NCBI GenBank assembly: GCA_013822735.1
Contig: PNKZ01000003.1
Location: 1-64,000, forward strand
Origin: Pirellula sp.
Lineage (GTDB): Bacteria; Planctomycetota; Planctomycetia; Pirellulales; PNKZ01
Direction: 5' to 3'
DNA: 64,000 bases
Both the position numbers and the translations under genes were made by a program. Positions within the stretch are counted from its first letter, which is position 1, and each line of letters starts with the position of its first letter. The notes beneath the pieces were generated by a model, which saw only the letters and a list, made by a program, of their open reading frames with translations, was not told the DNA's origin and made no database searches. Shown piece after piece: positions 18,143 through 45,553 of the stretch.

Positions 18143-18147
18143 AGCTG

Positions 18148-19059: not shown

Positions 19060-19080
19060 CGTCCCACTCCCTTTGCAATG

Positions 19081-19557: not shown

Positions 19558-19589
19558 TCTTATTCTCCGTTTGACGCTTAACTCTGTAA

Positions 19590-22538: not shown

Positions 22539-22550
22539 GCGAAAGCCTCT

Positions 22551-24778: not shown

Positions 24779-26157
24779 GCTTCGATCTCCACCGATTCGG
24801 TATCGAGGTCCAAGTCTTCAATTACTTCCTCGCCATCGGTCAGCGAGCCCAATTCGTCAGAAACGCCTTGCTCTTCGATCACTTCCGAAAGCCGACGTGC
24901 AGCTTCCCGCACGTCGAGCTTGCCGGTGACGACGTCAGCAATCAATCGCACTCGATACTCATGAAGCAGTTCTAATTCACGTTTTGCCTTTTGAATGGTA
25001 TCGGTCAGAGACGCGGTTTCAGACCGAGTCGCATCGAGAATTCGTTGTTGCTCATTTGCCGATGGTACAGCGATGGCAATCGACATAAGGCGATCTTGGG
25101 TCAGCTTCGGTTGTGCTGCACCACTTATCCACGGCAGGTAATTCAGCGTCTCTAACAAATGTGCCAAGTATTCGAGCTTTCCCCGTCGCGGCTTGAGTAT
25201 ATGGGCGTGGTTATTCACCCAAAACTTTCCTCTCGCAATGATGGCGAGCGGTAGATTTCGCAGTACCAAGTTGGCACCATCTTCCGCGATCAATAAAAGC
25301 TCTTCGTCAAAAAGGAAATCGTCAACTTTGTCGATGACGCCTGATGCACCGTAATAGTCGTAGGTGCGAGTAGTCATCGTGCCGCGCTCTGTGCTACTCA
25401 GCGGTACTCGCCGACGATTCAAGCACGCAAATTCCGTTTTGATGCGAGAGACGGTCCAGTGCTCTGGCACGTCACCGAGCCAGTCGGTGCCGGAGGGTTT
25501 GAAGTGTACGTTGGAGTCGAGACCTCGTGTGACAGCGCGGTGGATGATGGCCCGCTTCTGCTCGTTCAACAGAGCGATCAGTCGCCGCTTCGCGCCGATG
25601 CACCGCCGAATCCGCCGGTCTGCATGGTCGATAAATCGGACGATGGCTGACTGCTCGTCGGGTGGGGGAAACGGCGTGGGGATTTGCTTGAACTCTTCCC
25701 AATACAGCCGATTGCGGTCGGAGACGATGCCGCGAGAGTAGTTGTTGACTTCGCCCTTATAGGCGTCTGTACGGAAGAGGTGAGCAAAGTAGTCCGTGTT
25801 CGTATCGGGAAATGGCCGAGCGACGACGTACGCCGGACTAATGAGGCCGTCGACCGGGGCAACGCCGACCGCTCCCTGCCACATTCGCATCATGTTGTAC
25901 GCAATGTCCCCCTGGCAGGCGCGCTTGTATTTCGTCTTGTCGGCGATTACTTGCTTTCGCAGCGACGAATCAAAGTCGCGAACACGCACGCCGGTTCTGA
26001 GTGAGACTTCGAGGATCGGCAAGTCGGGAAAGCCGGTCTCAGTCCTTTCGGCGAAGAGTCGACCATTTCGTCGAACGTCCCAGTGGGCCGGGATGCTTCC
26101 CAACCACGGAATCCCGGAATCGCGATATTCGGAGTACGGCCGGAGACCCTCGATCAT
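24775..26157 (-). CDS. hsdS: Type I restriction specificity subunit S
   Basis: 460 residues from the ATG at 26157, which overlaps the preceding stop (ATGA); an in-frame ATG at 26193 is less likely. Two target recognition domains are evident from the repeated openings GIPWLGSIPAHWDVRRN (near residue 15) and TDWLGDVPEHWTVSRI (near 225), each followed by the PPxxEQ-type end of the central conserved helix (PFPPPDEQSAIV and AVPSANEQQRIL). It determines the bipartite DNA target for HsdM and HsdR. The C-terminus has an acidic extension. Confidence 0.93.
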   Translation of the reverse strand: MIEGLRPYSEYRDSGIPWLGSIPAHWDVRRNGRLFAERTETGFPDLPILEVSLRTGVRVRDFDSSLRKQVIADKTKYKRACQGDIAYNMMRMWQGAVGVAPVDGLISPAYVVARPFPDTNTDYFAHLFRTDAYKGEVNNYSRGIVSDRNRLYWEEFKQIPTPFPPPDEQSAIVRFIDHADRRIRRCIGAKRRLIALLNEQKRAIIHRAVTRGLDSNVHFKPSGTDWLGDVPEHWTVSRIKTEFACLNRRRVPLSSTERGTMTTRTYDYYGASGVIDKVDDFLFDEELLLIAEDGANLVLRNLPLAIIARGKFWVNNHAHILKPRRGKLEYLAHLLETLNYLPWISGAAQPKLTQDRLMSIAIAVPSANEQQRILDATRSETASLTDTIQKAKRELELLHEYRVRLIADVVTGKLDVREAARRLSEVIEEQGVSDELGSLTDGEEVIEDLDLDTESVEIEA

Positions 26158-27992
26158 GCCCCGACCTCCGCCAGTAGATCGGTCGGATTCCAAACCCGCT
26201 CGGCAAGCTGCCGATAGAGGTTGTGCCGTGCGTCGAGATCGTCCTTTCTGAACGTCTCATGTGGCTTGAACGGCAGACCCGTCTCGGCGACAAAGCTGAG
26301 GAATCCCGGATGATGCTGGTAACAGTTCGGATGCAGTGACTTCGCGAGCAGGTTCTGCCCAAAGTATTCCTTGACCTTGTCGGCATACGGAAGCGCTCCG
26401 TAGCTGCCATTGAACGACTTTGGGAGCAGGAGCAAGCCGCCGAGGCGGTTGCGATATGCGGCAAAGTCGGCTTCGTGCTGGAACTCGTCTTGGTGTCGTT
26501 CGTGCTTGTCGGCCCAAATGTGCTCGACCTCGTAGCGTTTCTTTCCGCGCCAGCCGGTGTACTCCTCGTAGTGAGAGGCATAGCCGGACGCAGTTTCCAC
26601 GTAGTCGGTCAGGCGCGCGAGGATGCGTGCGATTTGTCGCCCGTTCGTGCCGTGCAAGGCGAATCGTTCGCTCGTCGCGAACACTTCCTTTTCGGCGTCT
26701 AGGTCAGCCTTCAACTTGGTCGCCAACTCGGCAGGTGCGCTGTGCCGGATCGCCAGCATGATCTTGAAGATTGGATACTTCATTGTCGACTGGTCGGTGC
26801 TGCGGTAGTTCCACATCCGCCGGGTGAGCACGATGTCGAGGTAGCGGGCGCAAAGTCGCCACTTCTTCTTGATCGTTTCCGCATCATCCGTGCGCAGCAG
26901 CGGAGCGAGCAGTAGCATCGGTTGCAGCGTGAACCCGGCCTGAGCGTTGTAATAGATGTGCTCTAATCCGGGCTGTCGCGTATGACCGGCTTGCAAAATC
27001 TCGATGTAGCGTTTCGAGTAAAAGTCGAACTCGTTACGGATGAACCGAAAGAAGTCCTCCGACTCGTTTAGCCCAATGGCTTCTTGAGTGTCGCGAACCC
27101 AGCGGTGGAATTCGGAGCCGATGCGATCGAAGTCGCCAGGAGCGGCATCACGCTTGCGTTCACGAATGGTTTTCGCGTGCTGGCTGCGGAGCCATGATTT
27201 GAAGCAGTCGGCGTCGGTATCTTTGCCGAAGGCGGCAAGTTGCTGAACCCGTTCTTTCCAAAGCGTATTGCAGTTGGTCCGTTTCGTTGAGTCGTCGATG
27301 TTGGCCAACAGGAAGCCTTTGAGCATGTCGATCGGGCTGAGCGACAGGCCGCGATCATTCATCGTCTCGAAGATCGTGTAGGCGTCCTCGTCGGAGTAGG
27401 CGGTGATTTCGACGAGGTGGACGTTCTCGATGAGCCAGTCGACGAAGAACGGAAGAGACTCGCCGCTGATCTCGGCAGGAAATCGGTCTTCGATGTCGTC
27501 GTAGCGCGCCTTGATGTTGACGATCGCCTCGGACTGCCCTTCGACGTCGAAGTCCTGGCCGCTATAGAGGGCGTTCATGCACTCTTCGCGTTCTTCGACG
27601 CTGATGTTGAACGACTTCTGCCCGAACTGCGTGGAGTAGATCAGATTGTTGATCTCGACCCGTTGATCTTCCGGGATTTGCTTTTGCAGGTGATTCAGGT
27701 GAATTAAAAGCAGCGTGAGCGACGTAAGCCGCTGCTGCCCATCGACGATGTAGCGAAGGTCGTCTTTGCTGCTGAGGATGATCGACCCTAGGAAGTAGTG
27801 GCCGTAGCCTTTGACGGCGCTACGGCTATGGGCCGGGTCGTGATCTTCGAGGAACCGCGAAGTAAGGTCGGTGATGAGTTCCTCGATTTGCTTGGTTTCC
27901 CAGCGGTATTCGCGTTGGTAGTAGTCGATCGAATACTTGGCGCTGCTAAGAAGCTCGCGCACCGTCTTGGCTTTACCGAGAATCTCTTTCAT
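26154..27992 (-). CDS. GmrSD-type DUF262/DUF1524 protein
   Basis: 612 residues. The N-terminal DUF262 domain has YQREYRWE and IVDGQQRLTSL (DGQQR nucleotide-binding motif); the C-terminal DUF1524 domain has YEVEHIWAD with downstream NRLGGLLLLPKSFN, the His-Me finger nuclease pattern (H plus N). Fused GmrSD proteins cut modified phage DNA using NTP. It is inserted between hsdM (TAATG overlap) and hsdS (ATGA overlap), so it is coupled to both. This gives the operon reach over both unmodified and modified DNA; whether it cooperates with the type I complex is inferred. Confidence 0.88.
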   Translation of the reverse strand: MKEILGKAKTVRELLSSAKYSIDYYQREYRWETKQIEELITDLTSRFLEDHDPAHSRSAVKGYGHYFLGSIILSSKDDLRYIVDGQQRLTSLTLLLIHLNHLQKQIPEDQRVEINNLIYSTQFGQKSFNISVEEREECMNALYSGQDFDVEGQSEAIVNIKARYDDIEDRFPAEISGESLPFFVDWLIENVHLVEITAYSDEDAYTIFETMNDRGLSLSPIDMLKGFLLANIDDSTKRTNCNTLWKERVQQLAAFGKDTDADCFKSWLRSQHAKTIRERKRDAAPGDFDRIGSEFHRWVRDTQEAIGLNESEDFFRFIRNEFDFYSKRYIEILQAGHTRQPGLEHIYYNAQAGFTLQPMLLLAPLLRTDDAETIKKKWRLCARYLDIVLTRRMWNYRSTDQSTMKYPIFKIMLAIRHSAPAELATKLKADLDAEKEVFATSERFALHGTNGRQIARILARLTDYVETASGYASHYEEYTGWRGKKRYEVEHIWADKHERHQDEFQHEADFAAYRNRLGGLLLLPKSFNGSYGALPYADKVKEYFGQNLLAKSLHPNCYQHHPGFLSFVAETGLPFKPHETFRKDDLDARHNLYRQLAERVWNPTDLLAEVGA

Positions 27993-30130
27993 TACTTCGC
28001 CCCTCCGATAATTTCGGTCAGCAGCCCTTCTGTTTCTCGTTCCAGAGCCAATATGTCGGTCCGAATCTCTTCCAGCGAACGCAACTGCTGCGGTTTATAG
28101 AAGTAGCGGTTGAAGCTGATTTCGTAGCCGATCTTGGTGGCCTCGTCGTCGAACCAGGCGTCGGGGGCGTGCGGCAGGACTTCGCGCCGGAGGAACGCTT
28201 CGATGCCTCCCTCTTCGAGCAGTGCAATCTGTTCCGTGTCGCGCAGCTCAGTGTCGGGCTCGTATTCGAGGACCAGTCCCTTGTCGCCAACAGGATTGGC
28301 GTAGCGGCCACGGATCGGATCGACCTTCACCTTGCCGGCTTTGTGAACCTTCTTGATGACGGGGGCGGCTTGCTCATCGCGCCGAGCCAACGAACCTTGC
28401 AACAGCTTGATCCGCTTCGCTGGCAGCTTCACGCCTTGGGCATCAGCGAGTTCCTCGACACGGCCGAAGAATTCGTTCCAATCGGAGTGTGGGCCGACGC
28501 CGAGTTTCTTTGCGGCAAGATCCATGAAGTTCGCGAGCGGCTCTTCACCGGCCTCGTCGCACACCGCGCGGAATGCGGCGAGTGCGGCAGGCGCGAGGTC
28601 GATGCGTAACCGCAACGGACGTTCGACCGTGACCTTCCAGTAGCCGAAGGCGGCGTTCGGGAAGATCTTGGATTGCTCGGTTTCTTTGAAGGCGAGGAAC
28701 GTCTTGACGATGTGTTGGATGTCATCAGGCGTGAGTTCGCAGTTCTTCTTGCCCATGTTTTTGCGCAGCGGCTTGAACCACGACGTGGCGTCGATGAGTT
28801 GAACTTTGCCTTTGCGCTTCTTCGGCTTGCGATTCGTCAGCACCCAGATGTAGGTCGCGATGCCCGTGTTGTAGAACATGTTCAGCGGCAGCGCGACAAT
28901 CGCTTCGAGCCAGTCGTTCTCGATGATCCAACGACGGATGTTGCTTTCGCCTTGACCGGCGTCGCCGGTGAAAAGCGACGAGCCGTTGTGAACTTCGGCA
29001 ATGCGGCTACCGAGCGTAGTGCCGTCCTTCATCTTCGAGAGCATGTTGACGAGAAACAGCAGTTGGCCGTCGCTCGATCGCGTGACGAGCGAGAGTTCTT
29101 CACCGTGGTGCTGAACGACGAAGCGAGGATCTTTGAGGCCGTCCTTGCCGCCCATCCGATCGAGGTCGCTTTTCCACGACTTGCCGTAGGGCGGATTGCT
29201 CAACATGAAGTCGAACTCACGCGACGGGAAAGCGTCGTTCGCGAGCGTCGAGTGTTCCGGTCCGCCGACGATGTTGTCGGCCGCTTCGCCTTCGCCTTTG
29301 AGCAACAGGTCGGCCTTGCAAATGGCGTAGGTCTCGGCGTTGATCTCTTGACCGTAGAGGTGGGTGGCAACCTGCTTTTTATGATCGGTGCCGAGGTGCT
29401 TGAGCGTTTCTTCGGCGACGGTGAGCATGCCGCCGGTGCCGCAGGCCCCGTCGTAGAGTAGGTAGGTGCCTGACTCGATTTCGTCGGCAATCGGATCGAA
29501 GATGAGCCGAGCCATTAGTTTGACGGCGTCGCGCGGCGTCCAGTGCTCGCCCGCCTCTTCGTTGTTCTCTTCGTTAAAACGGCGAACCAACTCCTCGAAG
29601 ATCGTCCCCATCGCATGGTTATCGAGGCCGGGAGACTTGACCGAACCATCGGTGTTCAACACCGGATTCGGGCCAAGGTTGATCTCCGGGGCAAGCAACT
29701 TTTCGATCAACGTGCCCAGGGCGTCCGCCTTCGACAGACGGGAGATCTGATTGCGAAACTCGAAGCAATCGAGAATTTCTTGGACGTTCGGCGAGAAGCC
29801 GTCGAGGTAAGCCTCGAAGTCGGCCTTGAGTTGCTGCTGACTGGCGCGGGACCGCAAGTCGCGGAGCGTGAATTTGCTGGTGTTATAGAACGACTTCTCC
29901 GCCGCTTGCCGCAGAGCCGCGTCTTGATTGGCGACCTTCGACTTGTCGAGCGCCTTCTTCATATCGAGCACGGCCTGCTTGGTGGGCTCAAGTTCGGCGT
30001 CGAGGCGGCGAAGGACGGTCATCGGCAAAATGACGTCGCGATACTTGCCGCGCACGTAGAGATCGCGGAGCACATCGTTAGCGATGCCCCAGATGAACTC
30101 GGTGATCCAACTCAATTGCGATTGATCCAT
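27992..30130 (-). CDS. hsdM: Type I restriction-modification methyltransferase subunit M
   Basis: 712 residues from the ATG at 30130 (the open frame continues upstream through the HTH gene in another register). An N-terminal helical HsdM domain is followed by the methyltransferase core: YDGACGTGGMLTV (motif I, SAM) and SNPPYGKSW (NPPY, adenine N6). The C-terminal ~150 residues include the conserved basic helices and a coiled segment (ALERETEGLLTEI) typical for contact with HsdS. It starts 26 bases after the HTH gene. Confidence 0.95.
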   Translation of the reverse strand: MDQSQLSWITEFIWGIANDVLRDLYVRGKYRDVILPMTVLRRLDAELEPTKQAVLDMKKALDKSKVANQDAALRQAAEKSFYNTSKFTLRDLRSRASQQQLKADFEAYLDGFSPNVQEILDCFEFRNQISRLSKADALGTLIEKLLAPEINLGPNPVLNTDGSVKSPGLDNHAMGTIFEELVRRFNEENNEEAGEHWTPRDAVKLMARLIFDPIADEIESGTYLLYDGACGTGGMLTVAEETLKHLGTDHKKQVATHLYGQEINAETYAICKADLLLKGEGEAADNIVGGPEHSTLANDAFPSREFDFMLSNPPYGKSWKSDLDRMGGKDGLKDPRFVVQHHGEELSLVTRSSDGQLLFLVNMLSKMKDGTTLGSRIAEVHNGSSLFTGDAGQGESNIRRWIIENDWLEAIVALPLNMFYNTGIATYIWVLTNRKPKKRKGKVQLIDATSWFKPLRKNMGKKNCELTPDDIQHIVKTFLAFKETEQSKIFPNAAFGYWKVTVERPLRLRIDLAPAALAAFRAVCDEAGEEPLANFMDLAAKKLGVGPHSDWNEFFGRVEELADAQGVKLPAKRIKLLQGSLARRDEQAAPVIKKVHKAGKVKVDPIRGRYANPVGDKGLVLEYEPDTELRDTEQIALLEEGGIEAFLRREVLPHAPDAWFDDEATKIGYEISFNRYFYKPQQLRSLEEIRTDILALERETEGLLTEIIGGAK

Positions 30131-30156
30131 CGTTGCTTTCTCAAAGTCGGCCACGA

Positions 30157-30372
30157 CTACTTGGCTTTCTTGTTGCGAGACGGCTTCACGGCGCGAGCGG
30201 TCTTTTGCAGGAAACGGTCGAGGTCGGTTTGACGAAACAGCCGGTAGCCGTTCGCCGGATTGCGGTGCATCGGGATTTTGCCCTGCTCGGCCCAGGCCCG
30301 CAGGGTGTTCTGCGAGACGCCGACGATCTCGGCAGCCTCGGCGATTTGGACGTACTCGTTCAACTTGGTCAT
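30157..30372 (-). CDS. MerR-like/excisionase HTH protein, first gene of RM operon
   Basis: 71 residues from ATG 30372. It is an HTH_17-type small DNA-binding protein: IAEAAEIVGVSQNTLRAWAEQGKI followed by GYRLFRQTDLDRFL, the usual helix-turn-helix plus wing. Such proteins control RM operons or act as excisionase-like factors. It is the promoter-proximal gene of the minus-strand RM operon and lies about 100 bases from a 15-base palindrome at 30476. Autoregulation through that site is inferred. Confidence 0.8.
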   Translation of the reverse strand: MTKLNEYVQIAEAAEIVGVSQNTLRAWAEQGKIPMHRNPANGYRLFRQTDLDRFLQKTARAVKPSRNKKAK

Positions 30373-30475
30373 GTCGTCGCTCCACGAATACACGTCACGG
30401 CGTGCAAGAGCATCAACCTACCAAAGTCTGCAACCGGTCGAAACAACCGGCGGTTAATAAATTACCTCGCCGCTT

Positions 30476-32090: not shown

Positions 32091-32282
32091 ATGACTCAAG
32101 CCGAGTTCGAGCAAGAAGTTTGCCTAGCCACCGGCGAAGACCGCCGCACGGTCCGTACGCGCGGTTTCAGCCTCGTCGTCATGCCCGATCGCGAACCGTT
32201 GACCGTCGACTGGGATACCGTCCAGCAGGTCGAGCCGATCCGCTACCGGCTGCACCGTCGCCGACGCCGCTGCGCCGCCTAG
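32091..32282 (+). CDS. Small hypothetical protein
   Basis: 63 residues, ATG preceded at good distance by TAGGAG. Acidic N-terminus (TQAEFEQEVCLATGED) and very basic C-terminus (RLHRRRRRCAA). The internal FSLVVMPDREPLTVDWDTVQQVEPI suggests a small beta-rich domain. It heads a plus-strand group with the clamp-like gene 86 bases downstream. No family recognised. Confidence 0.6.
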   Translation: MTQAEFEQEVCLATGEDRRTVRTRGFSLVVMPDREPLTVDWDTVQQVEPIRYRLHRRRRRCAA

Positions 32283-32368
32283 CTCGTGGTCCTCTCCATC
32301 CGTTCCCTTTCCCGCGCCGCTCGTCTCCGCGTGGGGGCGGGCGGCGTGGGCATTTTAGGAGTTCAAGC

Positions 32369-33766
32369 GTGATCCGAATTCCTCGTTCCGTTCTCAAGCG
32401 CTTTCGTACGCTCTGCCGTCGCGGTGGCCTGCACAAGTTCCGCACGTCCGGCGGTCCCTACGTCGCCGTGGCCGGCGGCATCGACGGCTACACGCTCCGG
32501 GCCGCGTCGCCCGACGTCTGCATTTATTACCACGATCCGGCTCCGTGCGACGCGGAAGCGATCCGCTTGCCACTCGACGCCCTCGAAGTCTGCGAGGGCC
32601 GCGACGACGCCCAGGTCGACATTGAAGGCCTTCCCGGCAATCGGGCGTTACTGTCGTGGGTCGATCGGAGCGTTCCCCGGCAGCACGAGGTCGACCAGCC
32701 GAAGGCCGGCGGGTTTGCCTTTCCCGGTTTGCCCACAAACTTCGTCGACAACGAGCCGGGCATGTGGCCCGCGCTGAGAGACGCGGTCGCCACGACGGAC
32801 GCCTCGTCGACGCGATACGCCCTTGGCTGTCTACACTTTCGCGGCAAACACGGCCGGTTCGAGGCCACCGATGGGCGGCAGGTACTGACGCAATCAGGCT
32901 ATCAATTCGATTTCGACGCGGACCTGCTGGTCCCGGCGTCACCGCTGGTCGGCTGCCGCGATCTCGACGGCGAGTCGGTTGCCGTTGGTCACAGCGACGA
33001 GTGGGTCGGCTTTCGGGTCGGAAAGACAGTGATCCTGGTCCGCATTCAGAAGGAAGGCCGTTTCCCGAAGATCGACGAGTTGCTGCCCGCCGTCGACCGA
33101 GCACCGTCGCAATTGGAGTTGTCGGCACAGGACACCGCATTTCTGTTGGGCGCGCTGCGGAGCCTGCCGAGTAGTGATCCGCAGTACATGCCGGTCACAT
33201 TCGACTTGAACGGTCAGGTGCTCATCCGCAGCCGCGATGCGAACCGGGCTCGGCCGACCGAGGTGGAGTTAACGTCATCGCGGTTGAACGGCGAGGCCGT
33301 CATGTTTAACACCGATCGGCGGTTCGTCGAGAGAGCGTTGCAGCTTGGCTTTCGGGCAGCATCCATTTACGGCCCGAAGTCCCCAATTCTCTGCGCCGAC
33401 GAACGACGCCGATACTTATTCGCACTGCTGGACGCCGAAAGCGCCGTGCCGAAGTCGGCCGATGCCGTGCGAATCGAATCGACGATGACGACGACTGCTT
33501 TGCGAGTTCGTCGCCCGCGTCGAAAATCGACGGCGGATGTTCCGCCTATGCCCGAGATTCCGCCGACCGAGGTCGCGGCCGAGCGGAATTGCGATGCGAA
33601 AGAGGTCGAGCCGATGGAAGGCGCGATTCAACTACGTGACGCCCTGCGGAATGTGACGTCGGCCGCGCATCACCTTGTTCGACAACTCAAGCGACAGAAA
33701 CGACGGTCACGAATGGTCGAGGCGACGCTGACGTCACTGCGGTCATTGCCAACCTTGGCCGGTTGA
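32369..33766 (+). CDS. Possible DNA polymerase III beta-clamp-like protein
   Basis: 465 residues from a GTG at 32369 with TAGGAG upstream. Some segments resemble DnaN: RYALGCLHFRGKHGRFEATDGRQVL (domain-2 pattern of R-L-hydrophobic-ATDGxxL), a following strand ending VPASPL, and RFPKIDELLP as in the beta-clamp GxYPxxxxxIP. The N-terminal third and the Pro/Lys-rich C-terminal ~100 residues are unlike DnaN. If correct, it is an element-encoded clamp, perhaps with extra partners. The region has several overlapping shadow frames because of high GC. Confidence 0.5.
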   Translation: MIRIPRSVLKRFRTLCRRGGLHKFRTSGGPYVAVAGGIDGYTLRAASPDVCIYYHDPAPCDAEAIRLPLDALEVCEGRDDAQVDIEGLPGNRALLSWVDRSVPRQHEVDQPKAGGFAFPGLPTNFVDNEPGMWPALRDAVATTDASSTRYALGCLHFRGKHGRFEATDGRQVLTQSGYQFDFDADLLVPASPLVGCRDLDGESVAVGHSDEWVGFRVGKTVILVRIQKEGRFPKIDELLPAVDRAPSQLELSAQDTAFLLGALRSLPSSDPQYMPVTFDLNGQVLIRSRDANRARPTEVELTSSRLNGEAVMFNTDRRFVERALQLGFRAASIYGPKSPILCADERRRYLFALLDAESAVPKSADAVRIESTMTTTALRVRRPRRKSTADVPPMPEIPPTEVAAERNCDAKEVEPMEGAIQLRDALRNVTSAAHHLVRQLKRQKRRSRMVEATLTSLRSLPTLAG

Positions 33767-34548: not shown

Positions 34549-34992
34549 ATGCTCAAACTCAACGTCGGTTTCAGTCGGAAACTCGGTGAAGCCAATTACG
34601 GCTCGCGCGGCGCGAGCATCAATGTGGAAGTCGAAGTCGATTCCGGCCTCATCGGCGACGCCGATCGACTCAAGGATCGGATCAGGCAATTGTTCGCGTT
34701 GGCCAAGGGGTCAGTCGACGAAGAGCTGGCCGGGAAATCGCACAACGGCAACGGGGCGAACGGCAAGACCTCAGACAACGGCAACGGCCGACGTCGTGAC
34801 GGCACGCGTCGAGCCACCGCCAGCCAGATACGAGCGATTCATGCGATCGTTGATCGGCAACGTCTCGATCTTACCGCCGTACTGCACGAACGCTATGGCA
34901 TCAACGATCCCACCGAGCTTTCGATTACGGAAGCCAGCGAACTGATCGACAGCATTAAGAATGCCGGCAACGGGACTGGAGGGAAGCGATGA
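34549..34992 (+). CDS. Hypothetical protein upstream of RecB-like nuclease
   Basis: 147 residues with TTGGAGG before the ATG. An N-terminal beta-rich domain (LNVGFSRKLGE, GASINVEVEVDS), then LKDRIRQLFALAKGSVDEEL, a Gly/Asn-rich linker (about residues 64-85), and a C-terminal helical region (ASQIRAIHAIVDRQ...). The stop overlaps the nuclease start (ATGA), implying coupled translation. The layout resembles small single-strand DNA or recombination partner proteins of mobile elements; no family is claimed. Confidence 0.65.
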   Translation: MLKLNVGFSRKLGEANYGSRGASINVEVEVDSGLIGDADRLKDRIRQLFALAKGSVDEELAGKSHNGNGANGKTSDNGNGRRRDGTRRATASQIRAIHAIVDRQRLDLTAVLHERYGINDPTELSITEASELIDSIKNAGNGTGGKR

Positions 34993-35810
34993 TAAGCCTC
35001 CAACCGCAACCGCGAGCCGCCTCGCCACCGCCGGCCGAACGCGACTACATTTCCTACTCGGCGATCTCGATGTATCAAAGCTGCCCGCTGAAATACTTTT
35101 TCAGGTATGTCGCCGGTTTGCCCGAACGGACGGTCGCAGCTGCGCTGGTGTTCGGGAGCGCGATCCATCGAAGCGTCGAACATCATTTCACCGAGTTGCT
35201 CGCAGGTAACGAACCGCCGACGCTGGAAGCGTTGACTGGCGAATACGATCGGCATTGGCAAGAAACCGATGTGAGCGTCGTGAAGTTCGGCAAGGACGAC
35301 GACCGCGAATCGTTGGGGCCGCTTGCTCAGCGCATGCTGGCCGCGTTTCAGACGAGTTCGCTGGCCAAGGTCGAAGGTCACATCCTCGGCGTCGAAGAAC
35401 AACTTCGCGGGCCAGTGATCGCCGGGACTCCCGACTTGCTGGGCCGGGTTGATCTGCTGGTCGAGACGACCAACGAACTGATCGTCACCGATTTGAAAAC
35501 GGCACGATCGCGTTGGTCGGCTGAGCAAGCCGCCGACTCAGGTGCACAACTGCTGCTGTACTCGGAACTCGCGCGTCCACTTGCACCGCGTAAAAAACTT
35601 CGACTTCAATTCGCCGTCATCACGAAATCCCGAGAGCCGTGCGTTGAATTACACGACGTCCCCGTCGATCGACGTCAGATCGACCGTACAAAACGCATCG
35701 TCGAAAAAATATGGCGAGCGATCGAAAGCAGCATCTATTACCCGGCACCGTCGCCGATGCAATGTCCAACATGTCCGTTCCGAACACCTTGTCGCGCATG
35801 GGCAGGATAA
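34989..35810 (+). CDS. PD-(D/E)XK nuclease of RecB/Cas4-like family
   Basis: 273 residues. SAISMYQSCPLKYFFRYV at the N-terminus (first Cys of the iron-sulfur type set), FGSAIH, then GRVDLLVETTNELIVTDLKTARS with D...D-x-K, and C-terminal CPTCPFRTPCRAW cysteines. This is the PDDEXK_1 arrangement, likely a [4Fe-4S]-bearing exonuclease. It overlaps the preceding hypothetical gene by four bases. There is no CRISPR array or cas gene nearby, so a recombination or replication role for the element is more likely than adaptation. Confidence 0.85.
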   Translation: MISLQPQPRAASPPPAERDYISYSAISMYQSCPLKYFFRYVAGLPERTVAAALVFGSAIHRSVEHHFTELLAGNEPPTLEALTGEYDRHWQETDVSVVKFGKDDDRESLGPLAQRMLAAFQTSSLAKVEGHILGVEEQLRGPVIAGTPDLLGRVDLLVETTNELIVTDLKTARSRWSAEQAADSGAQLLLYSELARPLAPRKKLRLQFAVITKSREPCVELHDVPVDRRQIDRTKRIVEKIWRAIESSIYYPAPSPMQCPTCPFRTPCRAWAG

Positions 35811-37620: not shown

Positions 37621-37980
37621 TCATCCCCAGTCGATGCCCTGAACGTCTATCTCATGCAGATCGTCATCGCTCGGTACCGGGTTAGGACGATCGACAAACA
37701 CCTGCAACGTGGCGGGGACGGCAAACTCGCTTGGCATAGACTTCGGCTCAAGCGACTTGAAGCCGTACCGCTCGAAGCCGTTCGTCGCTCGCCAGACGAC
37801 GGACTCGTCCACTCCAAACCGTCTAGCAATGTTTTTCACCCGTTCGCCCGCCGCGCGTGCAAGTAAGATCCTGGCTCTTACGACGCTGACAAACGGCCGC
37901 GCACCGTTGTTCGCGATCCGTCGCAGGATTCGTTCAGCCTCGCTGGTCAATTCAAAGGGTTTGGGCCTTCTGCCGCGCAT
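37621..37980 (-). CDS. Orphan homeodomain-like HTH protein (IS630-type transposase N-terminus)
   Basis: 119 residues from ATG 37980, seven bases after AAGGAGG. The core (FELTSEAERILRRIANN, RARILLARAAGERVKNIARRFGVDESVVWRATNGFERYGFKSL) matches the HTH of IS630/Tc1-like transposases. A transposase would continue for another ~200 residues with a DDE domain; here the frame ends, so it is either a truncated transposase or a free-standing regulator. It lies downstream of the reverse transcriptase in the same direction (108-base gap). Confidence 0.65.
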   Translation of the reverse strand: MRGRRPKPFELTSEAERILRRIANNGARPFVSVVRARILLARAAGERVKNIARRFGVDESVVWRATNGFERYGFKSLEPKSMPSEFAVPATLQVFVDRPNPVPSDDDLHEIDVQGIDWG

Positions 37981-38088
37981 CGTCATCCCTCCTTGGATGG
38001 TGCTTCGCCGAGATGATTGAGTTTGCACTTTCCGGCCACCCGTTGTCCATCCGGTTGAGTATGCGACTGAATTGTGCACGGCGATTCC

Positions 38089-39417
38089 CTACGGTTTAAC
38101 GGCTATTTCATGCGATTTATTTTGGTGTGGCTCGTGCCGTGCGACTTTTGCCGTGAGACGTTTCCAACGTCGGTCGGCTACCTGCCAATGCGCAATCAAT
38201 TCCGATACGTCGGGGACTTCCTCGAAACCAAAGCGCCCGGCAATTCGGACCATTCTCTTGCAATGCGCCTCGTAGTCGACGTGCCGAAAGGCGGGGCCGA
38301 GAGCTTTGATCCAACCAGTGATGATGGCTTCGGCCTTCAATTGAGCATGATCTTTGGAATAGACCGTCGCGAGCTTGGAACGCAACTGCGGCCAAGCTCG
38401 CTCTGACAAATACTTCTGCAAGGTTCGCCCGTTATAGAAAATCTGAAAGCCCAAGAACCGGACCACCTCGCGATATTTCAGTTGAGAGATAGCGTCATCG
38501 GTCGATGCTTTTAGTTTCAATCCCGTGGGAAGCAAGATCTCGCGTAGCGTCTTGTCCGCCTCAATGGCTTGCGCCATGCTGCCGCACGTCATCAGATGAT
38601 CGTCGCCGTAACGGAACCAAGCAACATCGGGAAGTCGGTCGGTAAGCGGCCGATCAAGAAAATGATGAACGTAAACATTGAGCAGCAGCGGCGACAACGC
38701 AGATCCTTGGCGAAGACCGTGCGTCCTTGGTGACGTGATGATGCGTTCCAGAAAGTTTAGGAGCGCTGCATCGGGTAGATAGCCGCGCAATAGTCCCATG
38801 AGACGGCCAATGGGAACTGATCCGAATGCGTCTCGAAAATCGTGACAGACCCAAACGAAGCGTTTCCGCGCGAGTGTCTCATGCTCGGCGCAGGCCAACG
38901 CCTGGAGTGGGCCGCGACCCGGTCGAAATCCAAACGATGAGGGATAAAACAACGGATCAAACAACGGTTGCAGCACCATCGTCGCGGCTCGCTGAACCAT
39001 GCGATCCACGAGTTTGAGGAGGACGATCTCGCGATTTCCTAAGCCGCTTAACTTCGGAACGAAACAGGACTTTTCCGGCCCCATGCAATAAGTTCCATCT
39101 TGAATCGCGCGTGCGACCGCCTTACACAGCCTCCACACGTCGGCCCGGCTATAGTCGGCGTAAAACCGTCCATCCTTGCCCGGCGTTTGCCCTCCATGCA
39201 GAGCGTTGTACATCCAAGCGGCGTGGAGAGTGCGTGCGTCACCGATAGTCTTCAAGAGCGTAGGCGCGAGCCGCTTCAAACCCGCTTTCCCCTCGCTGAC
39301 GGCGGCTCGCGAAACGGCGGCATAATGGTTTTGAAAGTCGGACCAGTCCCCGCGATGGTAAAACATACGCCGTTGTTCGGCCGTAACGATCGGGGCTTCT
39401 GATTCATAAGTTGACAT
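38089..39417 (-). CDS. Reverse transcriptase, group II intron-like but standalone
   Basis: 442 residues, AAGGAG six bases before the ATG. RT motifs in order: CHDFRDAFGSV (catalytic D193), SFGFRPGRG at 161-169 as in group II intron RTs, RQGSALSPLLLN at 236-247, and FRYGDD with the active-site pair D272/D273 (YGDD instead of the usual YADD), then LGFQIFYNGR. The C-terminal ~110 residues form a helical thumb-like region without a maturase or HNH endonuclease motif. No intron domain V was seen nearby. It is preceded by ~300 nt of hairpin-rich non-coding DNA. This fits non-intron RTs using a dedicated RNA template, such as defence RTs or retrons, but the clade cannot be fixed by eye. Confidence 0.85.
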   Translation of the reverse strand: MSTYESEAPIVTAEQRRMFYHRGDWSDFQNHYAAVSRAAVSEGKAGLKRLAPTLLKTIGDARTLHAAWMYNALHGGQTPGKDGRFYADYSRADVWRLCKAVARAIQDGTYCMGPEKSCFVPKLSGLGNREIVLLKLVDRMVQRAATMVLQPLFDPLFYPSSFGFRPGRGPLQALACAEHETLARKRFVWVCHDFRDAFGSVPIGRLMGLLRGYLPDAALLNFLERIITSPRTHGLRQGSALSPLLLNVYVHHFLDRPLTDRLPDVAWFRYGDDHLMTCGSMAQAIEADKTLREILLPTGLKLKASTDDAISQLKYREVVRFLGFQIFYNGRTLQKYLSERAWPQLRSKLATVYSKDHAQLKAEAIITGWIKALGPAFRHVDYEAHCKRMVRIAGRFGFEEVPDVSELIAHWQVADRRWKRLTAKVARHEPHQNKSHEIAVKP

Positions 39418-39715
39418 AACAACTCCTTCTTAATGACGGCCTTGGGGAGCGCCGCAGCGCTCCCCAAGGCACGTCCTGTTGCGGAACTTCCGCAGACGAC
39501 CGGCGAAGCCGTCGTCGTCCCCGCCGCCCGCACCGAGGTACGAGACGTAGTTTACGGGAGTGTTCAGACACTCCCGGGCAGGTAGTACGACTGCGATCCA
39601 CATACGTCTAACCTTCGTGGTGAACGGTAAGAGGTATCGGGACTCTTTCAGCGCTATGGACCCCGCCGAAAGATTCGGGTGAGAAAGGATTCACACCTTT
39701 CTGCCGGAATCGAAA
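39418..39715 (-). ncRNA. Structured RNA upstream of the reverse transcriptase (candidate template RNA)
   Basis: The whole gap between the helicase-like gene and the RT is filled with inverted repeats: 39440-39469 (13-base perfect stem, CGCA loop), 39480-39494 (6-base stem), 39495-39516 (nine pairs with one bulge), 39555-39576 (9-base perfect stem, TCAG loop), 39666-39678 (5) and 39682-39702 (7). A long-range 7-base pair 39543-39549/39603-39609 encloses the TCAG hairpin. This density is far above the neighbouring DNA. The largest stem ends about 20 bases before the RT start, so a terminator or processing role for that one is possible. Expression and ends are not known. Confidence 0.6.
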
Positions 39716-41188
39716 CTACGACCCCCGCCCAGGCCAGAGATTAATAACCTCCACCTCGGGCAATAACCACTGAGACACATCGACCGTGCGCATCGAAAGC
39801 TCCGTTGCGCCGGACTGAGCATATTGTCGCCGTCGTCGGCGAGATTGAGCCGACGACCACCGATTGAATTGATCGTCGAAGTCGAGAAGCAGCGCACAGC
39901 GCGGGGAGTCTTCCTCCGCGACGCGTGCCGGAAAATTGCGTACATGGAGAGGAGATCGCGTGCCGGTGGCTCGAATGAGGATGTCGGCCGCGACGCCGGA
40001 TCGGGCCGCATAGCGACTGGTAACGATAGAATGACGCGATGAACCGTTTTCCCCTCGTCCGAGCAGCGCCCGGGAATGCGCCACGCACAGTCGCCATTCG
40101 GGCAAGTAGAGTGCGAGACGACGGGCTTGCATGGCGGACTCGGCCAATACGGCGACCCGTAACCGCTCGGGGTCGGGGAGATCGGCCGGAACGGTATCGA
40201 ATAGCTCCCGGCATGTGCGTAGCGGGTTGCCTGCGACCGTCAAAGCGATGCCGGCGGCGAGACGATTCCGAAGATCATTACAATCGAAACACGTTCGTTG
40301 CCGTCCCCGATACGTCGTCGTCCGTCGAACGTGACACGGGGGTGTGGGAACCATGCTGAAAAACAACGGCACGCGGGGCTTAGCGATTCGGCAACGGATG
40401 GGACCGGAGATTTGCTCGAACCGCAACCGCTGCTCTTCGTCGTAGTGCTTTCCGGCGACCGTGCAACCGAAGATTCGTTTAGCGAGAAAATGACTTTTGG
40501 CGAGGCGACCCCGTGCGACCTCGCCGAGACAATCCGCCAGCATCGGCAAGAGGATGACGTCGTAACGCTTCTCGGGCAGACTATGTACGGTGGCGACGGA
40601 ACACCGAGTGTTGCCGAAGAAGCCGGCATTCGCGAAGAAGAGACGGATCGGCTCCCGGAGCAGAAGTCTCAACTGATTGGTCATCTTTTTCGCAAGATCG
40701 AGGTTCGGCAAGACGACCAAGATCCGGGCGGCGGCGAATGCTTCGGCGATTTGCCAACAAACGTCGAACGCGTCGCGCTCATCGACGACCTCGATTCGCC
40801 CCAGCCCGTGGCGACGGACGGCTTCGATGCGTTCTTGGTCGCGCGGCGTCGCAAACGGTGGATTCCAGTCGGCAATCAGCCATGGAAGTCGTTCCTGATT
40901 GACTCGGACGCGATACCCGGCCGACTTGAGATCGGCGACTACGCGCCGAACGAACCCGGCGGAGAAATAGAGCGAGTCATTTTCGAGTTCAGAAAGTCCG
41001 ACTCGTTGAACGTGCTCTTGGTAACCTAGCGGTCCATCGCACGTGAAGGTTCGCTGCGTAACGGTGAGCAGCCGTTGCACGCACTCCAGAGCGGGCTCCA
41101 TTCGCGCAATGTGGCATCGCCCGACGTGAATCGTCACGTCGGTCTGTAATGGATCGGCGGGAATCTGGCTTGCAAGATTGTTGTTCAT
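39716..41188 (-). CDS. Degenerate SF2 helicase-like protein
   Basis: 490 residues from ATG 41188, which has GAAGG upstream; the frame is open further but without support. The layout resembles a superfamily 2 helicase: PFATPRDQERIEAVRRHG (Q-like), ILVVLPNLDLAKKMTNQL (motif Ia-like), SVATVHSLPEKRYDVILLP (Ib/II position), and a second half with LRVAVLAESAMQARRLALYLP. No Walker A GKT or DEAD/DEAH sequence is present, so ATP hydrolysis is doubtful. A C-x-x-C region (RTCFDCNDLRNR) near residue 315 may bind zinc. It lies directly before the structured RNA and RT in the same direction. Exact family unknown. Confidence 0.5.
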   Translation of the reverse strand: MNNNLASQIPADPLQTDVTIHVGRCHIARMEPALECVQRLLTVTQRTFTCDGPLGYQEHVQRVGLSELENDSLYFSAGFVRRVVADLKSAGYRVRVNQERLPWLIADWNPPFATPRDQERIEAVRRHGLGRIEVVDERDAFDVCWQIAEAFAAARILVVLPNLDLAKKMTNQLRLLLREPIRLFFANAGFFGNTRCSVATVHSLPEKRYDVILLPMLADCLGEVARGRLAKSHFLAKRIFGCTVAGKHYDEEQRLRFEQISGPIRCRIAKPRVPLFFSMVPTPPCHVRRTTTYRGRQRTCFDCNDLRNRLAAGIALTVAGNPLRTCRELFDTVPADLPDPERLRVAVLAESAMQARRLALYLPEWRLCVAHSRALLGRGENGSSRHSIVTSRYAARSGVAADILIRATGTRSPLHVRNFPARVAEEDSPRCALLLDFDDQFNRWSSAQSRRRRRQYAQSGATELSMRTVDVSQWLLPEVEVINLWPGRGS

Positions 41189-41255
41189 CAATGGGCCTTC
41201 GGTTCGTTGTGACGTCATATTTGAATTTGAGCCGGACGCCGGACACGATGTCCGA

Positions 41256-42134
41256 CTACCACCCGGCCGTCTCCTCTTCTGGCGTCGTGGGCCGTCGATC
41301 CAATAGCACGCTGAACAGTCTTCGCGCGCGGCGTAGGCTGTCCTCGTTATCCGCAATCAGCCTGGGCGAAATCCGGTCGGCTCTTCCCGTGAGGTCGCCA
41401 CATCCGCGCCGAATTGCTTTCATGAAGGCGACGAAGGCGTCGTTCGGCTTCACATGTCGGGTACGCTTCTGCGGGCCGTATTCAGCCGCCACTTTTTTCG
41501 GTGACTCGCCGGATTGAATTCGTCGCGCGATCGTGTTCCGCTGTTCTTCGGTCAGGCGCGAAACCTTTTCGGCTTCGATGAGACTAAGGGCCTTGCGCTC
41601 GAAGGCCGCTTGAATCTCCATTGGCGTTCTCAATACCGCCAAGTGGCGGTCCAAGTTGCGTCCGCTCATGCCGATCATCTTGCCGATCCGATCGCGCAGC
41701 TCTCCGTTTTGCGGGCTCACTCCTTCGCGTTCTGATTCGATCACCCCTTTGGCCATGCGGGCCTTTGCCAGCGGACTCAGCTGACGGCGCATGAGGCTGA
41801 ATCGAAAGAACTCTTCGTCAATTCGTTGCCGATCGTCATTCGCCAAGTCGTAACGCACGATGACTCGTACTTCATTTTGACCCAGCGCCGTCAGCATTTC
41901 TCTTCGTCGGTGACCGTCGAGAACAGTGTTGGTTGGCAATCCGGCCGCGTTCGTCGGTAGGATGTCGATCGGCGTCCGCAGGCCGTACCGTTTGATATCT
42001 TCGCGCAGCTCACGATCCTCGTCTTCTGATGTGGTTCCGTCCAACAAAGCCTGCGACGGGAATGGAATCAATTCCGACAACCGACGAGACTCTTCGCGCT
42101 TCACGTCGGGGACTGAACGGCGGCGCTTTCTCAT
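41256..42134 (-). CDS. ParB/Spo0J-like nuclease-domain protein
   Basis: 292 residues from ATG 42134, with GGGAGA upstream. ParB N-terminal domain: IPFPSQALLDG, DIKRYGLRTPIDIL, and VLDGHRRREMLTALG (the GHRR CTP-binding motif), followed by a helical DNA-binding region (NGELRDRIGKMIGMSGRNLDRHLAVL). No ParA gene lies nearby, so it may regulate or stabilise the element rather than act in a full partition system. The DUF1580 gene ends 34 bases upstream, suggesting one transcript. Confidence 0.85.
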   Translation of the reverse strand: MRKRRRSVPDVKREESRRLSELIPFPSQALLDGTTSEDEDRELREDIKRYGLRTPIDILPTNAAGLPTNTVLDGHRRREMLTALGQNEVRVIVRYDLANDDRQRIDEEFFRFSLMRRQLSPLAKARMAKGVIESEREGVSPQNGELRDRIGKMIGMSGRNLDRHLAVLRTPMEIQAAFERKALSLIEAEKVSRLTEEQRNTIARRIQSGESPKKVAAEYGPQKRTRHVKPNDAFVAFMKAIRRGCGDLTGRADRISPRLIADNEDSLRRARRLFSVLLDRRPTTPEEETAGW

Positions 42135-42168
42135 ACGTTCTCCCATCGCGGCGGCGACATGTGGAAAT

Positions 42169-42453
42169 TCAAATCCGCTCGTCCCGCAGAATGCGCTCTG
42201 CCCGCGCACGCGCTCGGCGTCGCGAGCTCGATAGCGGCGCTTCGGTGCCGCTCAGCCGCGTCGTGCGAACGACAAACCGGCTGATAGCTTCGCGGCTCGT
42301 GTATCGTCGCCCGCCGGCGACCAAGGTTTCTAATTTCGCGCCGCGTACGCCTTCAAGAACCCAGCGCCAAAGCGTCGAGGGATGCGGGGGGCGGGGAAAC
42401 AGCCGCCGGGCCTGTTCCAAAGTCAGCAACTCTTCCGTCTGCATGTCGATCAT
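42169..42453 (-). CDS. DUF1580-type planctomycete HTH protein
   Basis: 94 residues from ATG 42453 with GGAG upstream. MIDMQTEELLTLEQARRLFP, then PSTLWRWVLEGVRGAKLETLVAGGRRYTSREAISRF, is the pattern of DUF1580, a small winged-helix protein found in planctomycete mobile elements; the tail is very basic. Likely a DNA-binding or excisionase-like factor for the island integrase. It shares its direction with parB and the integrase. Confidence 0.75.
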   Translation of the reverse strand: MIDMQTEELLTLEQARRLFPRPPHPSTLWRWVLEGVRGAKLETLVAGGRRYTSREAISRFVVRTTRLSGTEAPLSSSRRRARARAERILRDERI

Positions 42454-42747
42454 GACATCGGCTCCAAAAAACAGGAAAACTTCCGATGCCATACCGATAA
42501 AGAAGAGGCTTTGAGATCTCAAAGGGACCCTAATGGGACCCTATGAGCCTATTCTGGGAAAAGGTTGGAGTACCGATTGCGACGAGTTAAAGGCCGTGCC
42601 CGGCGCGTAGGAGTAGATTCCAACGGCCGTAGGTCTTGATCGGCGTTCAATGGCGTTCGGCGGCGAGAGGCTGCGCCGTCGCGGGAAGAATGGCGAGCCA
42701 TCGACGTGGTCACGCCCGTCGCGGACAAGAGGTCGGTTTAGACCAAC

Positions 42748-43991: not shown

Positions 43992-45356
43992 CTATCCGAC
44001 CTCGCGAATGATTTCGATCGCACGGCGGAGATCACGCTCCGCATAAATCTGGGTAACGTCGGCTTTCTGGTGACCCAAGACTAGTTGAGCCGCCTCCAGA
44101 CCGTACTTGGCGCGAATCTCAGTCCCGGCGGCGTGACGAAGTTGATTTGGGCTCCAACGCTGAGACGCGAGCTTTGCGAACCATTCGATCTCGGCATCGA
44201 CCGCATCGTTATTCGGATTTTTCTCAAACAACGCCCGCTCGTGGCCGGCTTGTTTCCAGCGGTTGCGTCGGCCTTTGCGAACCATATCCTTCTTGCGTAC
44301 CTTGCCCGACCGCGCCAGCGTCAATAATTGGTTCCAGGTCAGGGGGCCGATTGTTTCGCCGAAAGCCTTGTCACACGCTCGGTGAATGGCTGAGTAGTAC
44401 GACTTCTCGCTGTAGTAAAGGCGCGGTTTTCGCTGGGGTCGCGGTTTGCTGCGGTCGACTTGCGACGGCTGAACCTTGCTGACGCGGCGCTCCCGCATCA
44501 ACTGCTTGCGGCGTCGCTCGCTTTCCGCCGGGGAAAAGCAATACTGGTCGGCCTCGCGATTCAAATACGGTTTCAGAATGACTTGGGCCTTCGGTCCGAT
44601 GAAGATCACCCGCGTTCGGTCATGATGCTCGGTCTTATAGGCCGCTGGTCGAAAGAGCCAGACTTTGTCTCGGCGGTCAACTTCACGGGGCCGCATGAGG
44701 CAAATCTCCTGCGGTCGGCAACCGCAGAGCCGCTGGACTTGAACCATGTCCGCGACGATTGGAGGCATGTGCTGCAAAGTGGCTTCCACGCATTCCTGAG
44801 AAACTGGTCGAACCGGAGCCGTCTCGCGCGCGGCCGACCGATTCCTCTTGAGCCCGCGCACATGAGCTAGGCCCTGGTAGACATGGGGAGCGATGAGTTC
44901 TTCGGCGACGCCCCAGCTGAATACTTGCTTGATTCGCCGAATGCGCGAGTTGATGACGCCGCGCGAAAGGCCGTTGCGGATCATGCGATCGCGAACGACC
45001 TTGAGCTTGGCGGGACCGAACTCGTCGCACAGCGCGTGGCCGTACAACCGGCGCAGCGGTCGCAGCGCATAACGAAAGTTGTCCGCCTCGCCGGTCGGCC
45101 GACCGTCTTTGACGTAGTACCGCTTGGCGTGGCGGATGAAGCGGGCGATCAAATCGACGATCTCTAAGCCGTCCCGCCCGATGGTCGGCTGTCGATCACG
45201 GGCTAGCCATTCGCTGACCAGGCGATCGTAGGCGATGCGGCTGGCTTTCGAGCGCCAAGGGCCGAGATAGTGGTCTCGTCCGCCGAGGGTGACGAGCGCT
45301 TGGCCGCTGGCCCGGTGCAGACGGTACTGAGGAACTGTATGAACGAGGCGAGGCAT
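43992..45356 (-). CDS. Tyrosine recombinase / integrase
   Basis: 454 residues. N-terminal SAM-like binding domain with the planctomycete integrase opening YRLHRASGQALVTLGGRDHYLG, and a catalytic domain with R214 (CGCRPQEI), R407 (NQLRHAAG), H429 (LGHQKADVTQ) and nucleophile Y438. The His of the usual HxxR box is Asn404, as in a subset of these integrases. It catalyses site-specific integration. The gene starts 123 bases from a tRNA-Val, the classic position for an island integrase beside its attachment site. Confidence 0.93.
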   Translation of the reverse strand: MPRLVHTVPQYRLHRASGQALVTLGGRDHYLGPWRSKASRIAYDRLVSEWLARDRQPTIGRDGLEIVDLIARFIRHAKRYYVKDGRPTGEADNFRYALRPLRRLYGHALCDEFGPAKLKVVRDRMIRNGLSRGVINSRIRRIKQVFSWGVAEELIAPHVYQGLAHVRGLKRNRSAARETAPVRPVSQECVEATLQHMPPIVADMVQVQRLCGCRPQEICLMRPREVDRRDKVWLFRPAAYKTEHHDRTRVIFIGPKAQVILKPYLNREADQYCFSPAESERRRKQLMRERRVSKVQPSQVDRSKPRPQRKPRLYYSEKSYYSAIHRACDKAFGETIGPLTWNQLLTLARSGKVRKKDMVRKGRRNRWKQAGHERALFEKNPNNDAVDAEIEWFAKLASQRWSPNQLRHAAGTEIRAKYGLEAAQLVLGHQKADVTQIYAERDLRRAIEIIREVG

Positions 45357-45459: not shown

Positions 45460-45479
45460 TCGGAAGGACTTAAAATTAG

Positions 45480-45553
45480 TGGGCGATACAGGACTCGAAC
45501 CTGTGACCCCTAGCTTGTCGAGCTAGTGCTCTAACCAACTGAGCTAATCGCCC
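45480..45553 (-). tRNA. tRNA-Val (anticodon GAC) with C33, likely integration site
   Basis: 74 nt. Acceptor GGGCGAT/ATCGCCC, D arm GCTC/GAGC, anticodon stem CTAGC/GCTAG with loop TCGACAA, T arm ACAGG/CCTGT; discriminator A. Position 33 is C where T is expected, although the stem register is unambiguous. Its 3' end faces the integrase, so the island lies on its 3' side. Confidence 0.85.

Follow-up and report, generated by a model that had tools for sequence, protein, structure and literature searches.

Orphan group-II-like reverse transcriptases (RTs) that lack introns have long been on record, their function not known, and one of them, encoded in the planctomycete Pirellula sp., raises the question of what an enzyme of this kind might work with. 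The gene lies on the minus strand of a 64,000-nucleotide stretch of DNA (positions 1 to 64,000 of contig PNKZ01000003.1, assembly GCA_013822735.1; here called the window) and is preceded on its own strand by about 300 nt of densely structured sequence. An earlier sequence-only reading, confined to positions 38089-39715, took it for a standalone RT. That description fails, as a gene for a degenerate helicase-like protein lies directly upstream and is a near-obligate companion of such RTs; the coordinates were correct and too narrow, the functional unit including the upstream gene at 39716-41218 (minus strand). We show that RT and partner are linked and sometimes fused, that RT-linked partners have lost their ATPase motifs, and that an associated RNA is both conserved and structured in several lineages with YxDD at RT motif C. 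There is in our judgment about an even chance that pseudo-helicase, group-II-like RT, and dedicated RNA together form an RNA-templated, DNA-making conflict system carried on tRNA-targeting integrative elements. One orphan RT family thereby gains a defined genetic unit (partner gene plus RNA), markers by which to find it, and direct tests.

The Reverse Transcriptase and Its Family

The RT open reading frame (ORF; 38089-39417, minus strand) encodes 442 aa with RYGDD at motif C and QGSALSP at motif B, and RVT_1 (E 2.3e-17) is its sole Pfam domain, in agreement with the earlier account of a 442-residue YGDD protein lacking a maturase or endonuclease motif. The top curated model is the group II RT/maturase TIGR04416 (131 bits against a cut-off of 300), which was also the best NCBIfam RT model in 10 of 10 family members tested. 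The retron models NF038233 (retron St85; 28 bits against 235) and NF042941 (19.5 against 600) and the DRT2 model NF041746 (Drt2; 24 against 390) stay below their cut-offs. Membership in a known retron or DRT family, to which the gene had been likened, was rejected because these curated cut-offs are not reached. Among PADLOC models, Drt9 scores 61 bits (no cut-off shown) versus 129 for the generic RT model, and PDLC02063, named Cas1_IIIb, matches at 83 bits. The genome carries a single copy of the RT. Single-sequence AlphaFold models had a mean predicted local distance difference test score of 40 for the RT and 33 for the partner and were unusable.

No intron RNA was found by Rfam cmscan of the whole window at the gathering threshold, around the window RT at E<=1, or beside the relatives L031-L037 and L039 (L-numbers are locus labels of relatives; G:C labels give genome and contig). 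These negatives are informative, because the same scan finds group II RNA at 11 of 16 ordinary group II-like RT loci of the same order, and the judgment that the locus is no clear group II intron, with no domain V, stands. A match to the gyrA RNA near the RT (E 0.063), far below its cut-off, was ignored. Directly 3' of the RT, positions 37621-38079 hold a fragment resembling the helix-turn-helix of an IS630-type transposase.

Degenerate-pattern scans of genome and viral contigs, named organisms included, returned no relatives, and alignments A1 and A2 proved too diverse for scanning of this type; whole-genome searches within the window's order did recover relatives, and close RT relatives carry the same upstream gene. 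A tree was built from 49 family RTs and 21 control RTs, the controls comprising planctomycete group II-like RTs (most with Rfam-verified introns), plasmid group II RTs, the RT of the BPP-1 diversity-generating retroelement (DGR), and phage RTs. A 100/100 branch separates the family from the controls, among which the BPP-1 RT falls. The tree recovers the family as monophyletic against these 21 controls and apart from the group II and DGR RTs included (retron, UG/DRT, and CRISPR RTs standing outside the comparison), in keeping with the earlier suggestion that the lineage may be new. The family itself splits with 99/96 support. In branch A motif C is YxDN (L035, with WADD, is the exception), and the partner and RT genes overlap or form fusions. 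The window belongs to branch B, where motif C is YxDD and, in many members, about 300-617 nt separate the partner stop from the RT domain. Motif B reads QGxxxSP in nearly all family members.

A Degenerate Helicase as Partner

The upstream gene (39716-41218, minus strand; its longest ORF starts at 41356) encodes a degenerate superfamily 2 (SF2)-helicase-like protein of about 500 aa without the Walker A lysine and the motif II aspartate. The window protein has no Pfam match and is 37% identical over 328 aa to the product of the gene upstream of the nearest RT. A profile of the partner also finds four stand-alone relatives (L062, L064, L086, and L087) with intact GxGKT/S and DExH motifs; the two that were scanned, L062 and L064, contain Pfam ResIII/DEAD/Helicase_C. 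Since the partner profile finds proteins that Pfam calls SF2, the partner is counted as a homolog of SF2 helicases. Among 47 aligned sequences, 4 of 4 stand-alone relatives and 0 of 43 RT-linked partners retain the Walker A lysine or motif II aspartate, and given that the RT-linked partners are without both residues the partner is probably ATPase-dead.

Linkage to the RT follows the same division. By hand tally across Planctomycetia, 59 of the 64 degenerate partners with available sequence lie directly upstream of, or are fused to, a family RT, and both proteins share one ORF at L068, L088, and L120; an RT adjoins none of the four intact relatives. Searches with the partner profile gave matches in 25 of 397 genomes of the window's order and 50 of 398 of its class, counts that include a few intact helicase relatives, and two outlying genomes of the phylum carry only such relatives. 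By eye, L062 (G118:C34) adjoins a DnaB-like ATPase, and L064 (G386:C41) is likewise an intact SF2 protein without an RT. The position of L062 suggests that the partner derives from a phage or element replication helicase.

Structured RNA in the Window

The 298 nt between partner and RT (39418-39715, minus strand) form the putative non-coding RNA (ncRNA) region. Their minimum free energy (MFE) is -148.7 kcal/mol, as against -109.4 +/- 5.4 in dinucleotide shuffles (z -7.27, 0 of 200 shuffles as low), and coding controls from the same loci fold at z near 0; the dense structure noted from sequence alone is thus borne out. The MFE structure contains at least six hairpins, in line with the six first described, and a 7-bp helix that closes around most of the region and not, as had been thought, around one hairpin. 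From 5' to 3' on the minus strand, sequence and MFE place a 10-bp hairpin UCUUUCGGCG...CGCUGAAAGA at 39644-39673 and the hairpin CGGGAGUGU-CUGA-ACACUCCCG at 39555-39576. These are followed at 39495-39519 by the hairpin GACGACGACGGC-UUC-GCCGGUCGUC, with the motif GC-U(N)YC-GC common to much of the family. A strong GC hairpin, CCUUGGGGAGCGC-UGCG-GCGCUCCCCAAGG (39440-39469), lies just 5' of the RT ribosome-binding site, the probable Shine-Dalgarno sequence AAGAAGGAG at 39423-39431. A like-placed GC hairpin is seen by eye in L031, L097, L099, L118, and L124/L133/L134, with covariation in the last three. The last pre-RT hairpin (39435-39475) is a near-perfect palindrome, hence its 90% match to its own complement. 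The window RNA has no second copy in its own genome.

Conservation and Position of the RNA in Relatives

The partner-RT interval is structured or conserved in L031, L083/L084, L099, L097, L118, and L124/L133/L134. Seven of the 11 long branch B intergenic regions fold at z <= -2.3 (window about -7.2, L099 -5.4, L084 -4.1), and branch B intergenic z-scores differ from those of coding controls at P 0.005. Homologs thus keep both structure and synteny upstream of the RT, and no domain V was found beside them.

The clearest sign of constraint comes from L125, L126, and L127, a trio of the same genus. The 508-nt intergenic regions of L125 and L127 share 81% identity (core 82-90%), while the partner coding sequence is 66% identical with a 4-fold divergence of 0.52 and the RT has a 4-fold divergence of 0.24; because the RNA is more conserved than the silent sites of both flanking genes, these comparisons argue that it is under selection. 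Its most conserved part is the first 300 nt, far from the RT start, and no second genomic copy was found in genomes of the genus. L125 and L126 carry near-identical modules (4-fold divergence 0.015 in the RT, 0.095 in the partner), and their RNAs differ in a hypervariable block, columns 301-425 of alignment A5, with 29 changes in 125 columns; the preceding 300 columns hold 5 changes and the following 95 hold 1. The block, seen in this one pair, could be a template open to exchange or a segment under relaxed constraint.

Covariation among homologs, proposed in the sequence-only reading as a check, was detected in L124/L133/L134, whose RTs are 61-68% identical. Their six-helix structure has 8 pairs with two-sided changes versus 3.1 in shuffled alignments (0 of 500 as high), and slid controls give 0-1 such pairs. 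The comparison covers three sequences, from which the structure was itself derived in part, and we take it as support and not as proof. Across deep lineages the RNAs could not be aligned by primary sequence, and therefore no covariance model was made.

Upstream placement of the RNA, as first described, holds in branch B. In branch A there is no room between the genes, and it is the 300 nt 3' of the RT that are structured (P 0.004 versus the region upstream of the partner; P 0.0004 versus the same place in branch B). The position of the RNA is thus shifted, from between the genes in the YxDD branch to after the RT in the YxDN branch.

A short hairpin core occurs in both arrangements. In branch B, GC-U(N)YC-GC, first noticed by eye, lies some 90-115 nt 5' of the RT start, and in branch A a hairpin with this core is located after the RT. 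GGCTYCGCC, a motif chosen by eye on these very sequences, is present in 8 of 14 intergenic regions, where 0.09 would be expected. A held-out test is the preferred evidence for that reason: the looser motif lies within 120 nt after the RT in 6 of 13 held-out members against 0.87 expected (P about 8e-5), and a stricter form requiring three flanking pairs is present in 2 of 15 against 0.29 expected. The motif is enriched, not universal.

Branch B offers a further contrast. The RTs of L032, L033, L098, L116, L117, and L122 carry a fused RNase HI domain, and these are the members with a short or unstructured intergenic region, while branch B members with structured RNA are without RNase HI (Fisher P 0.0015, for related sequences that are not independent). 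One branch A member, L094, also carries RNase HI.

Mobile-Element Context

Upstream of the partner in the window lie, all on the minus strand, genes for a ParB/RepB-like protein (41256-42209; TIGR00180 E 1.8e-7, below cut-off), a small DNA-binding-like DUF1580 protein (42169-42522), and a tyrosine integrase of a mobile element (43992-45356; Phage_integrase), followed by tRNA-Val(gac) (45479-45553), the probable attachment site of the element. The ParB-like family is found in 8, the DUF1580 family in 10, and integrase relatives in 8 of 24 module neighborhoods, and a tRNA adjoins the integrase in the window (Val), L033 (Val), L035 (Gly), L091 (Arg), and L097 (Ala). Since integrase, DUF1580, and ParB-like neighbors and integrase-side tRNAs recur, the module is carried on integrative elements, and roles as cargo and as element core were both considered. 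No direct-repeat att partner was found within the window. On another contig, a 44-bp piece (G000:C2:178850-178893) has 93% identity with the 3' portion of the window tRNA-Val and is possibly an att remnant left by a related element.

Lying between tRNA genes and lower in GC than its flanks, the window island contains a type I restriction system along with further defense-like genes. The retron- or DRT-like layout reported earlier, a structured RNA next to an RT on an island with defense genes, is supported. Defense-like genes at 13921-30385 encode type I HsdR/HsdS/HsdM, an Orf5/HEC-06-like protein, and CARF-like and PRTase-like proteins, and the same segment holds an ORC-CDC6-like ATPase and a PLD-like protein. 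The ORFs at 32120-33766 (beta-clamp-like by eye, no Pfam match) and 34549-34992 and the PD-(D/E)XK nuclease gene at 34989-35810 recur beside modules in other genomes. Small near-module proteins share a VEPGPL-like motif followed by L...FG (L032 6085-6684, L034 3498-4205, L035 11156-11713, L036 10369-10965, and L039 993-1379); four that were tested have no Pfam match.

What the Module May Do

Under the conflict-system reading, the RT would bind the adjacent RNA, partly via the conserved GC-U(N)YC-GC hairpin, and copy part of that RNA into a short stretch of DNA, while the pseudo-helicase would act as a nucleic-acid-binding scaffold, sensor, or effector for the RNA-RT-DNA complex; on its tRNA-targeting elements the module would serve anti-phage or inter-element conflict. 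This would be the working mode of retrons and DRT2/DRT9/DRT10, arrived at from a separate RT lineage. Because an RT with a conserved structured RNA and an accessory gene sits on a mobile island, the most likely activity, by analogy, is that the RT reverse transcribes part of the adjacent RNA, as those systems do.

Several observations weigh against this account. The window RNA is without a close homolog and cannot be aligned even with that of L031, whose RT is 43% identical, which is why covariation is seen only in other lineages. In L032, L085, and L124 the last 300 nt of the intergenic region are unstructured (z about 0 or higher), and in L103 the structure is weak. As the RNase H-fused branch B members are without structured RNA, the RNA is dispensable for some members. 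The hairpin motif is short and missing from about half of members, some of the branch A structure 3' of the RT could be due to terminators, and polymerase activity may be altered or lost in YxDN members. Five of the 64 partners have no adjacent RT detected (G843:C274, G873, which has in-frame stops, G828, G855, and G848). Finally, it is from sequence that we infer transcription, cDNA, and a defense role for the module.

A more specific version can be offered only tentatively: an undescribed retro-system in which a group-II-derived RT would use an RNA with an exchangeable, fast-changing template segment, the pseudo-helicase would handle the product, and alternative states would have the RNA behind an RT with motif C YxDN, or an RNase H domain in place of the RNA. 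The exchangeable segment is hinted at by the L125/L126 hypervariable block.

Of the two main rivals, one would have the module help to replicate or maintain the integrative elements of planctomycetes by priming or copying their DNA or RNA, with no part in defense and with a pseudo-helicase descended from an element or phage replicative helicase; this is possible, though doubtful. The recurrent integrase, DUF1580, and ParB-like neighbors are core element genes, the intact helicase relative L062 has (by eye) its DnaB-like neighbor, and the RNase HI of some branch B RTs makes a retroelement-like combination. However, the partner's ATPase motifs have been lost instead of kept, and the scattered distribution (a partner-family match in 50 of 398 class genomes) and the occurrence as two-gene cassettes, at times fused, are also in keeping with accessory conflict systems.

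We regard as unlikely the other main rival, a cis-acting role, in which the structured interval would be a leader whose terminator or attenuator hairpins set the dose of RT relative to partner and the RT would use other templates. The genes are otherwise translationally coupled, the intergenic regions of L083/L084, L097, and L031 end before the RT in terminator-like hairpins with U runs, and branch A structure may include operon terminators. Yet at 300-540 nt the interval is long for a leader, conservation in L125-L127 peaks in the first 300 nt, distant from the RT start, stems covary in L124/L133/L134, and in branch A the shared hairpin motif is found 3' of the RT, a position that rules out an RT leader.

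A degenerate or domesticated group II intron ribonucleoprotein, with RT and intron RNA remnants retained for splicing-like or retrohoming activity, is very improbable: the closest curated family is indeed TIGR04416, at 131 bits in the window and matched by all 10 members, but that score is below cut-off, no intron RNA was found in the window or beside scanned relatives with a working positive control, and an RT that is single-copy in its genome, has a conserved partner gene, and lies outside the intron-RT clade and apart from the 21 controls led us to reject membership. DGR RTs typically have IGxxxSQ at motif B, and a DGR with the intergenic RNA as template repeat, for which the RNA beside the RT and the L125/L126 hypervariable block might speak, was rejected as having a negligible chance, given QGSALSP in the window and QGxxxSP in nearly all members, RNA that is single-copy in its own genome and in the L125-L127 genus genomes, no template/variable repeat pair, the absence of a variable repeat with A-specific substitutions from the carrier genomes searched, and the grouping of the BPP-1 RT with the controls.

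If the RNA is reverse transcribed, as the conflict-system reading has it, the family would add a lineage to the RNA-templated DNA-making systems of bacteria and provide a case of an inactivated helicase being recruited. Within it, the natural contrasts of YxDD with YxDN and of RNA with RNase H would allow motif C and template handling to be probed by structure-function tests.

Comparison With Known Systems

In retrons and in DRT2, DRT9, and DRT10, the RT works with its own ncRNA (PMC12548924; PMC12596737; PMC12489045; PMC12632851). The present module resembles retrons in that an RT, a structured RNA beside it, and an accessory protein occur together on mobile or defense islands; it differs in that the window RT is below the curated retron cut-offs and nearer to group II RTs, and in that the accessory is a pseudo-helicase. 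With DRT2, DRT9, and DRT10 of the UG group it shares an RT with a dedicated adjacent ncRNA, and with DRT10 an accessory protein gene as well, SLATT in that case (PMC12489045; PMC12596737; PMC12632851). A dedicated structured ncRNA of the DRT2/DRT9 type is predicted here in the YxDD branch, though not in all its members, and the differences lie in a score below the Drt2 cut-off, another partner, a YxDN branch, and RNase H fusions. Group II intron RT/maturases are the nearest in sequence and share motif B QGxxxSP, whereas the present family forms a separate clade without intron RNA and with a conserved partner gene. CRISPR-associated RTs (RT-Cas1) are likewise group-II-derived RTs that lost the intron; the window RT, however, has no Cas1 part, its partner is a pseudo-helicase, and no cas genes were recognized among the neighbors examined.

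The closest counterpart may be G2L5, a group named by Simon and Zimmerly that contains RTs of Gimesia/Planctomyces maris and Blastopirellula marina and that is, like the present family, a set of planctomycete group-II-like RTs without ribozyme RNA and with function not known (PMC4244168; PMC4424553; PMC8934634, here and below as far as the accessible text of these papers goes). Whether such RTs belong to mobile DNAs was given as unknown in a 2015 review (PMC4424553), G2L5 did not gain support as a group (PMC4244168), and myRT assigned its two Gimesia sequences to two other classes (PMC8934634). Its published descriptions, on which the comparison rests, mention no partner gene or RNA. A partial overlap between the present lineage and this orphan group is plausible, and for that reason the RTs themselves are not claimed as undescribed. 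In the literature searched, which was short of most subscription papers, no description of the present RT-partner-RNA unit was found; the partner, the RNA, and the two-branch organization appear to be new.
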